Of a DNA stretch of 63,006 nucleotides, positions 52,002 through 58,065 are shown piece by piece. The notes beneath the pieces are model-generated. The model was given only the letters and a program-made list of their open reading frames with translations. It searched no databases and was not told the DNA's origin. This DNA comes from a virus, in the IMG/VR virus record IMGVR_UViG_3300037840_000064, positions 1 through 63,006 of that record, one strand, 5' to 3'. The position numbers were made by a program, and so were the translations under genes. Numbering within the stretch: the stretch's first letter is position 1; every line of letters starts with the position of its first letter.

Positions 52002-53048
52002 ATGCCTCCCCACGCCGACGTGCTGCAATGGGAACACCTGCCGTTCCCCAAATCGCTCCGGGACTTTCAGCGGCTGTTCCCGGACGACGCGGCCTGCGCT
52101 CGCTATCTTGAGGGCGCCAAGTGGCCGAAAGGCCTTGAATGCCCGCATTGCCATGAACGCGGCGAGCCGTTCCGCATGGCGACGCGGACCAGCGTCCTGA
52201 CCTGCCGCAAGTGCCGCAAGCAAACGTCGCTGACAACCGGGACCGTGATGGCCCGGACTCACTCGCCCCTGACGACGTGGTTTTGGGGTGCCTATCTGGT
52301 CGCTACGGTTACCCCCGGCATTTCGACGGTCCAATTCGAGCGCCAGCTTGGCTTGACCCGCGAGACGGCGTTCCAAATCCTGCACAAGCTGAGGGCCGGC
52401 ATGGTGCGCCAGAACCGCGACAGGATAGGTGGCAATCTGGCGCGCGGGGATCATGTCGAAATCGACGAAACGTACATAGGCGGCAAGGTGCGGGGCGAAG
52501 GCAGCGGTCCTAAGCCCGATCATACCGTCCTGGTCTGTGCCGCCGTCGAAGTCCGCACGCGGCCAGCAAAGAAAGGCGACAAGCCCATGCGGCGCGGCGG
52601 GCGCTATGCCGGGCGCCTGCGCCTCGAAATCGTCGAAGGCCGAAGCGAGAAAGACCTGTGCGGCTTTGTCGAGCAGGCCGTAGAGCCGGGCGCCATCGTG
52701 ATTACGGACGCCTACCGGAGCTACAATTCGCTTGGCAAGCGCGGCTACCAGCATTTGCCGGTGATCGAAGGCGGCAAGCCGGAAGTGGCAGAGGAATATC
52801 TGCCAATCGTCCACTTGGTTTTCAGCAACCTCAAAAGCTGGTTGCAGGGCACGCACCACGGCCGGGTCAGCCCCAAGCATTTGCAGGCTTACCTCAATGA
52901 GTTCGTGTTCCGCTTTAACCGACGCTTCTACCCGTTCAATTCGTTCCGCAGCTTGCTCGGCATCGGCGCCAATGGCGAAGCGCCAACCTATGACGGGCTG
53001 TACGACGGAACTTGGAAGCATCCGACAATGGCTAGTCATCATGCCTGA
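52002..53048 (+). CDS. IS1595/ISXO2-like transposase
   Basis: Encodes 348 residues. An N-terminal zinc ribbon (CPHC at 47-50, CRKC at 68-71) is followed by the catalytic domain: HVEIDETYIGGK (Asp 155), VITDAYRSYNSL (Asp 236) and VHLVFSNLKSWLQG (Asn 276 and Lys), the DDN(K) arrangement of the family. Downstream THHGRVSPKHLQAYLNEFVF is also characteristic. Stop lies 15 bp before the right inverted repeat. Appears intact. Confidence 0.93.
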   Translation: MPPHADVLQWEHLPFPKSLRDFQRLFPDDAACARYLEGAKWPKGLECPHCHERGEPFRMATRTSVLTCRKCRKQTSLTTGTVMARTHSPLTTWFWGAYLVATVTPGISTVQFERQLGLTRETAFQILHKLRAGMVRQNRDRIGGNLARGDHVEIDETYIGGKVRGEGSGPKPDHTVLVCAAVEVRTRPAKKGDKPMRRGGRYAGRLRLEIVEGRSEKDLCGFVEQAVEPGAIVITDAYRSYNSLGKRGYQHLPVIEGGKPEVAEEYLPIVHLVFSNLKSWLQGTHHGRVSPKHLQAYLNEFVFRFNRRFYPFNSFRSLLGIGANGEAPTYDGLYDGTWKHPTMASHHA

Positions 53049-53123
53049 CCATCAACCCGTGGGGCCTGTATGTGTAAAGCCGAAAAGCATGATATACTTA
53101 ACTCCCGGACCCCCTAGATGTAG

Positions 53124-53837
53124 ATGACCGCATATTACAACGAAAACGACCCCTACGCCGCGCAATGGCTGCGCAATCTCATCGCGGCCGGGCACATCGC
53201 GCCCGGCGACGTTGATGCACGCTCGATTGTGGATGTAAAGGCCGATGACCTTGAAGGATACGAGCAAGCGCATTTCTTCGCCGGTATCGGCGGATGGTCC
53301 CATGCCCTCAGACTTGCGGGCTGGCCCGACGATCGATCTGTCTGGACCGGCTCCTGCCCGTGTCAGCCGCTTTCGTGCGCGGGACAGCGAAAAGGCCATG
53401 CCGACGAACGACACCTCTGGCCCGCTTTTCACGACATCATCGCCAAGTGCGGACCTGCAATCGTGTTTGGAGAACAAGTTGCGGGCGCGGATGGGCGGGA
53501 ATGGTTCGCCGGGGTACGCGCTGACTTGGAAGCATTGGGATATGCCTGCGGGGCCGCCGATTTGTGCGCTGCGGGCGTCGGCGCGGACCATATCCGACAG
53601 CGAATTTATTGGCTGGCCCACGCCTACGGCCCCCGTCCGAACGAACGGCCATCAGGCCGGAAACAATCGCTACGTGACATGGGTGCAAAGGACTTTTGGC
53701 GGGAAAATAAACCCGGCCCGAACCCTGTGGCAGATGGGGTTTCCTGCCGCATGGATAGGGTGCGCGGCGGCGGACAGGCCATCGTCCCGCAAGTCGCATC
53801 GGAGTTCATAGGTGCCTTCATGGAGTGCCAGCCATGA
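53124..53837 (+). CDS. C5 cytosine DNA methyltransferase
   Basis: Encodes 237 residues. Motif I HFFAGIGGWSHAL (50-62), motif IV GSCPCQPLSCAGQRK (77-90) with the catalytic Cys, an ENV-like VFGEQVAG, QRIYWLAH, and a C-terminal GQAIVPQVASEFIGAF. Compact phage form with a short recognition region. It methylates cytosine C5. The gene would follow directly after the IS-interrupted gene. A second frame overlaps 53245-53811. Confidence 0.88.
   Translation: MTAYYNENDPYAAQWLRNLIAAGHIAPGDVDARSIVDVKADDLEGYEQAHFFAGIGGWSHALRLAGWPDDRSVWTGSCPCQPLSCAGQRKGHADERHLWPAFHDIIAKCGPAIVFGEQVAGADGREWFAGVRADLEALGYACGAADLCAAGVGADHIRQRIYWLAHAYGPRPNERPSGRKQSLRDMGAKDFWRENKPGPNPVADGVSCRMDRVRGGGQAIVPQVASEFIGAFMECQP
53245..53811 (+). 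CDS. Overlapping reading frame inside the C5 methyltransferase gene
   Basis: Encodes 188 residues in the +1 frame relative to the methyltransferase. It reads like a phage protein family: SPGYALTWKHWDMPAGPPIC, ALRASARTISDSEFIGWPTP, then INPARTLWQMGFPAAWIGCA and PSSRKSHRSS. I recall proteins with such ALTWK...GPPIC...WPTP and LNPA..LWLMG patterns in other phages. Both frames look coherent, so this may be a dual-coding gene. It has no obvious ribosome site at 53245. Confidence 0.5.
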   Translation: MTLKDTSKRISSPVSADGPMPSDLRAGPTIDLSGPAPARVSRFRARDSEKAMPTNDTSGPLFTTSSPSADLQSCLENKLRARMGGNGSPGYALTWKHWDMPAGPPICALRASARTISDSEFIGWPTPTAPVRTNGHQAGNNRYVTWVQRTFGGKINPARTLWQMGFPAAWIGCAAADRPSSRKSHRSS

Positions 53838-57909: not shown

Positions 57910-57983
57910 CGCGGACGGCAGGACTCGGACCTACGACCTCTGGCTTAGCAAGCCAGCGCTCTCTCCAACTGAGCTACGCCCGC
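57910..57983 (-). tRNA. tRNA with GCU anticodon (Ser codons) but class I body
   Basis: Acceptor GCGGGCG pairs with CGTCCGC (one G-U). D-arm GCTC/GAGC, anticodon stem CTGGC/GCCAG with loop TTGCTAA giving GCU, T-arm GTAGG/CCTGC with loop TCCGAGT, discriminator G. The variable loop is only five bases (AGGTC), whereas bacterial tRNA-Ser has a long arm. The body resembles glycine tRNA with one anticodon change. No CCA is encoded. Identity is therefore uncertain. Confidence 0.8.
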
Positions 57984-57993
57984 AAACGGTGGA

Positions 57994-58065
57994 TACCGGA
58001 GTCCCGAGTTGAACGGGGGTCACGCAGTTAACAGCCACGCGCTCTACCGTTGAGCTATCTCCGGC
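57994..58065 (-). tRNA. tRNA-Asn(GUU)
   Basis: Acceptor GCCGGAG/CTCCGGT, D-arm GCTC/GAGC, anticodon stem CGTGG/CTGCG with loop CTGTTAA giving GUU, T-loop TTCAACT on a stem with one mismatch (CCCCG/CGGGA). Discriminator A, no encoded CCA. Ten bases upstream of the GCU tRNA, so both should be processed from one transcript. Confidence 0.85.

Follow-up and report, generated by a model that had tools for sequence, protein, structure and literature searches.

The window analyzed here, a 63,006-base virus record (IMGVR_UViG_3300037840_000064), contains a C5 cytosine methyltransferase gene (alpha) within which a second open reading frame (beta) is wholly enclosed. The two frames are as follows:

53124..53837, + strand: alpha, C5 cytosine methyltransferase; frame 0, 237 residues, with motifs I-VIII and X, motif IX not found
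53245..53811, + strand: beta, probable second subunit; nested +1 open reading frame of 188 residues, identified by stop depletion, regional conservation and phrog_1008

The frame 0 product matches phrog_363 (3.5e-74) and PF00145 (1.7e-13), and the +1 product matches phrog_1008 (5.4e-16) and phrog_31772 (2.5e-7), both of which are labelled DNA methyltransferase; searched against Pfam and NCBIfam, the +1 product matched no family. Both open reading frames had been proposed in a first-pass annotation of the sequence, and every peptide quoted there is present in the translations. An IS1595-family transposase gene (PF12762, PF12760; window 52002-53048) ends 75 bases before the methyltransferase start, and inverted repeats marking an IS end beside that start were sought and not found. 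Two tRNA genes lie close together on the minus strand at 57910-57983 and 57995-58064.

Taken alone, the window is unremarkable: its +1 frame has no stops where 1.6 are expected (p ~0.14), and long antisense open reading frames are also open over the methyltransferase gene. The evidence for dual coding is comparative.

Conservation of the second frame among relatives

Relatives were collected by the frame 0 protein alone, which gave 212 loci, or 213 with the window, and 202 distinct loci after removal of 8 identical and 3 short ones. Expected stop counts were obtained by shuffling synonymous codons within each gene. Between codons 45 and 165, the +1 frame of these 202 loci contains 2 stops versus 355 expected, whereas the +2 frame, used as a control, contains 777 versus 759. 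Routine interruption of the +1 frame in homologous methyltransferases, the observation named in the first-pass annotation as counting against dual coding, is thus not what the relatives display. The two early stops (L139 at codon 91 and L224 at codon 61) both precede a conserved +1 core, codons 95-160, that is open in all 202 loci. Over the longer interval from codon 45 to 18 before the end there are 31 stops versus 651 expected, nearly all of them close to or past the point where the +1 frame naturally ends. The depletion is present in every G+C class from 0.50 upward, and it is absent upstream of the beta start, where codons 3-28 contain 257 stops versus 199 expected.

Ordinary C5 methyltransferases of the PF00145 family, taken from the same bacterial order as one of the relatives, contain 241 +1 stops versus 235 expected in the 24 usable loci of 30, one of the 24 (L326) being itself a member of the family studied here. 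The motif pattern used for this control missed 6 of the 30 control loci as well as 7 of 9 distant loci, which were left unscored; a stricter pattern gives 136 stops versus 138.4 expected (16 loci). The antisense open reading frames at 53052-53621 and 53437-53799 were also considered as genes. Stops in the three antisense frames number 705, 1126 and 1263, versus 780, 1066 and 1132 expected, and since there is no family-wide depletion these frames are taken to be spurious. Chance or codon usage as the reason for the open +1 frame, with the methyltransferase as the only gene, has a negligible probability and is rejected: the high G+C content, the unexceptional openness of the window itself and the presence of other long spurious frames would allow it, but the 2 stops against 355, the +2 and antisense frames near expectation, the undepleted ordinary enzymes and the selection of the variable modules in the +1 frame (see below) all speak against it.

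Residue conservation was scored in 300 random distant pairs from 199 loci (274 usable for the C-terminal stretch), and both this and the codon-position test used an alignment in which 239 of 244 rows matched the input codons exactly. The +1 residues score 1.67 versus 0.37 in shuffles over codons 105-165, and 2.25 versus 0.46 over the C-terminal stretch. The +2 residues of codons 105-165 also rise, to 1.08 versus 0.15, so that part of the +1 signal there reflects shared codon choice. The share of differences at codon position 3 is equal in codons 45-105 and upstream of the overlap (0.60 and 0.61). It is 0.47 in codons 105-165, against 0.52 in neighbour genes of the same pairs, a weak control in which 22 of 90 pairs were usable, so that the position test does not give a clean answer for codons 105-165. 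Expected stops calculated by half and for the whole differ by the one +1 codon that spans the border between codons 104 and 105.

The second frame is conserved beyond what the first frame forces, and the dual-coding claim for 53245-53811 is confirmed. The reading of the overlap as conserved dual coding is likewise supported, both frames being conserved, though unevenly: conservation of the +1 frame is clear in codons 105-165 and towards the C-terminus, while codons 45-105 are stop-free in the +1 frame but their +1 residues show no more conservation than the +2 residues. The overlap had been called rare, which is true of it as a design, but inside this methyltransferase family it is common.

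A catalytic chain and a candidate DNA-reading chain

The alpha chain has the following motifs:

53277..53294, + strand: FAGIGG, which we take to be motif I; from the translation and alignment to C5 methyltransferases
53358..53375, + strand: catalytic motif IV, PCQPLS; C80 invariant in alignment A2, PCQ in 198 of 199 relatives
53595..53609, + strand: motif VIII, RQRIY; R158 and R160 invariant in alignment A2
53772..53792, + strand: motif X, GQAIVPQ; GN[AS] in 188 of 199 relatives

Alpha belongs to the C5 methyltransferases (PF00145) by its motifs I, IV, VI and VIII, which occur in order, and by its AdoMet-methyltransferase fold; motif VI reads EQV rather than ENV. The alpha model superimposes on M.HhaI (VIA) with a Z score of 13.0 (159 aligned, rmsd 2.8). 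A recognition domain and motif IX, by contrast, are not found in the same chain: the profile alignment to ordinary C5 methyltransferases (hhalign, 9.4e-18) covers residues 42-170 only, that is, motifs I-VIII, and residues 174-217 mostly fall below 50 in an AF2 model with an overall pLDDT of 79. The confident parts of that model are residues 1-167, except for the loop after the catalytic Cys and part of 151-160, and the motif X helix. Motif X of the window departs from the consensus in having Q in place of N, and activity may be affected. In two relatives (L009 and L021) a stop cuts alpha in the variable region while beta is open throughout and the alpha motif X is retained downstream, which would be either decay or a three-piece enzyme. 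The catalytic motif itself varies in a few loci: in L274 and L276, PCP replaces PCQ and is followed by a CxxC...CxxC zinc-ribbon-like insert, and L283 has APCPPWS.

The features assigned to beta are:

53237..53241, + strand: weak ribosome-site-like AAAGG, 3 nt upstream of the beta ATG
53443..53583, + strand: beta core, with a helix (67-86), a hairpin (91-113) and ...YALTWKHWDMPAGPPICALR...; from the AF2 model and near-invariant columns in alignment A1
53614..53700, + strand: variable region with one WPTP module (WPTPTAPVRTNGHQAGNN...), the presumed target recognition region
53704..53754, + strand: motif IX-like segment KINPARTLWQMGFPAAW; similar segments occur in Float294 gp61, Arturo gp75 and L435

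When the +1 family is compared with ordinary C5 methyltransferases by hhalign, the sole match places the C-terminal GKINPARTLWQMGFPAAWIG on motif IX with an E value of 0.054, which is weak alone. The end of beta is probably motif IX, an identification that leans more on the relatives described below; a strict motif IX pattern is missed in 36 of 199 beta C-termini. The AF2 model of beta is poor (pLDDT 65, pTM 0.28), and a fold search with it gave nothing above Z 3.0, the best unrelated PDB entry being GnsA (Z 3.0, 54 aligned, rmsd 4.5). In BFVD, the named matches of the model at E <0.001 are the FoX4 and eiDWF phage proteins.

In some relatives the two chains are arranged differently. In Mycobacterium phage Arturo (gp76/gp75) and Gordonia phage Float294 (gp62/gp61), beta is a separate gene downstream of alpha, and the alpha partner stops after motif VIII; the match of a tandem alpha to PF00145 takes in positions 3-161 of the 324 in the profile. 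Arturo gp75 and Float294 gp61 each contain, in one chain, PTP modules followed by ...SEWMMG... and then GNGVV (motif X). In contig L435, alpha and beta are fused in a single 574-residue open reading frame with LSPPFVEWLMGLPAGHVTD and then LKALGNGVVPQQA. Beta proteins of the nested and of the tandem kind both fall in phrog_1008. Of 18 Arturo gp75 relatives, 16 are tandem alpha-beta pairs with a frame difference of 1, beta lying in the +1 frame and overlapping the end of alpha, and the other two (L435 and L429) are single open reading frames. Motif IX was looked for in L429 and not seen, and the motif IX pattern has no match in 9 of the 16 tandem relatives (L426-L428, L430-L434 and L436); the alpha motif found in L426 is not convincing. 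In L334 and L335 the genes are in tandem and the second chain has motifs IX and X, whereas motif X of the window belongs to alpha.

The variable middle of beta is modular. Splitting 245 distinct +1 proteins at WxTx yields 219 modules with a median of 35 residues, and there are between 0 and 6 WxTx sites per protein. Module types recur across loci, WPTPMAG...DSSRKTV occurring in 12 and WPTPTAALADKGVRS... in 8. The modules sit between motifs VIII and IX, the position given for the recognition domain of C5 methyltransferases in a published account (PMC3404938). When modules were paired according to the similarity of their DNA, positions 1, 2 and 3 of the beta codons differed at 294, 206 and 959 sites (190 pairs of 80-90% identity) and at 17, 10 and 105 sites (48 pairs of 90-99.9% identity). 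This concentration at the third position of +1 codons indicates that +1 is the selected frame there; no other frame looks constrained in the variable middle. The WPTP modules would be candidates for setting sequence specificity.

With regard to the beta start, an in-frame ATG within codons 22-46, preceded by AGGA, GGAG or GAGG at a suitable distance, occurs in 153 of 202 loci versus 48.1 expected, with codons 36, 40 and 30 favoured. The beta ATG of the window is codon 40; AGGA, GGAG and GAGG are absent upstream of it. Beta is presumably translated in the window phage, with the internal ATG and ribosome site of the 153 relatives as indirect support.

Distribution and annotation of the nested frame

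When 199 genomes from a single bacterial order were searched with a +1 profile, 17 gave matches, all of which lie over a C5 methyltransferase; a stand-alone beta away from such a gene was not found in these genomes. The +1 register is kept in them except in L278, which is broken in both frames. Among named phages, 212 records match the +1 protein, those of the laboratory coliphages Bas70-Bas80 included, and their annotation varies between both frames, only +1 and only frame 0. Some GenBank records annotate the +1 product as 'Mte8-like' or 'g62 internal gene', and together with PHROG 1008/31772 these entries mean that it has already been filed as a protein family; the PHROG entries and the GenBank records carry only the DNA methyltransferase label, and neither a subunit role nor conserved dual coding is stated in them. 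Mycobacterium phage OwlsT2W (L338:1291-2004) has an unannotated +1 frame ending in ...RPNPTWLAWLMGFPVEW..., which means that nested beta-like frames occur in actinobacteriophages too.

Streptococcus-type phage C5 methyltransferases (L337:1297-2532 and L339-L418) contain another nested +1 gene, at codons 62-187, which belongs to phrog_16143. In 71 distinct loci of 42% G+C, this frame has 0 stops versus 446.6 expected; after codon 187 there is no depletion (1016 versus 806). Similarity between this nested protein and beta was not detected by hhalign (E 0.5), and the frame 0 product appears to retain its own C-terminal motifs. A nested frame therefore need not mean a motif IX subunit, and C5 methyltransferase genes may be repeated hosts of nested genes.

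A probable two-chain methyltransferase and its relation to known systems

We consider it highly probable that the nested +1 protein, to which the first-pass annotation gave no function, is a second subunit and that the enzyme specified by this locus is a two-chain C5 cytosine DNA methyltransferase. Frame 0 would produce alpha, consisting of an AdoMet-binding catalytic domain with motifs I-VIII and an unstructured linker to the motif X helix. The internal +1 start would produce beta, consisting of the helix-hairpin core, one or more WPTP target-recognition modules and motif IX, which together would form the small DNA-reading domain missing from alpha. The two chains are predicted to assemble into one active enzyme, and the resulting methylation would probably shield phage DNA from host restriction. 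We also favour, with moderate confidence, a more specific version in which the nested protein is the specificity subunit: the DNA-reading modules of a widespread phage family would be encoded outside the frame of the catalytic domain, as tandem cassettes (0-6 of them, shared by distant phages), which would make the middle of alpha a free spacer, and the family would record a path from fused to tandem to nested genes.

Alternatively, a programmed +1 frameshift during translation of alpha could yield beta as part of one fused chain that comprises motifs I-VIII, the modules and motif IX, as the order of parts in the single frame of L435 and the tandem beta genes, in the +1 frame and overlapping the end of alpha, might suggest. 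This is very unlikely, in that stops are already depleted in the +1 frame from around codon 45 onward, long before a shift would be of use, internal ATGs with a ribosome site occur three times as often as expected, and a fused nested product would be without motif X, which remains in frame 0. That beta is an independent protein, such as a regulator or an anti-restriction factor, and only resembles motif IX is unlikely as well. This explanation would accommodate the extra N-terminal core, which matches no assigned fold, and the Streptococcus-type enzymes, in which a nested +1 gene is present although frame 0 looks complete, but not the confinement of all 17 beta matches to C5 methyltransferase genes, nor a tandem beta that holds motifs IX and X, nor an alpha chain that has neither motif IX nor an ordered recognition domain.

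If the two-chain reading is right, alpha expressed alone would look inactive, and it is the overlapped frame that would have to be searched for the methylation specificity of such phages. Recognition cassettes that can be interchanged within a second frame would, in addition, offer a model, open to experiment, of the way in which overlapping genes are maintained and trade parts. Long conserved same-strand overlaps in which the functions of both products are known are rare in DNA phages, and many annotated phages carry the overlap described here, often with just one of its frames listed. The +1 sequence family, in PHROGs and some records, and two-chain C5 methyltransferases are already known. 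In a literature search that mostly left subscription papers outside, we found no account of this conserved overlap, nor a description of a modular recognition region in a nested frame with wide phage distribution.

Several known systems share parts of this design. The multispecific phage C5 methyltransferases of SPR and phi3T have tandem recognition domains in a single frame and a single chain. Like the family described here, they have a variable region built of interchangeable segments, about 35-40 residues long and arranged in tandem, but here two frames and two predicted chains are involved. The smaller gene of M.EcoHK31I was reportedly located by Lee, Kam and Shaw in 1995 in another frame within the larger gene. 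M.EcoHK31I, the precedent for the two-chain reading, is a two-polypeptide C5 methyltransferase recognizing YGGCCR; its larger chain carries motifs I-VIII and X and is also assigned the predicted recognition domain, while its smaller chain carries motif IX (PMC3404938). The window is similar in that motifs I-VIII and X are in the larger chain (motif X reading GQA) and motif IX is probably in the smaller one, as suggested by the hhalign match and by Arturo gp75, Float294 gp61 and L435 with their adjoining motif X. It differs in that selection on its variable region acts in the beta frame, the corresponding part of alpha being modelled as disordered, so that the recognition region, too, appears to lie in the nested frame. 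M.AquI, according to the same account (PMC3404938), is an alpha/beta C5 methyltransferase split in the variable region after motif VIII; Arturo gp76/gp75 and Float294 gp62/gp61 have a similar layout, the second chain holding motifs IX and X, whereas the window has motif X in alpha and a beta that is nested rather than downstream.

A second reading frame within a phage methylase gene also occurs in ShiLan-type phage methylases, whose out-of-frame HNH inserts are mobile endonucleases (PMC11855218), not parts of the enzyme as proposed for beta. One relative, L093 (730-2070), has within its +1 beta frame an insert resembling HNH endonucleases that recalls these inserts, and a Proteo-phage-1 RNA (RF03044, E 3.3e-11) lies upstream of it at 251-339.
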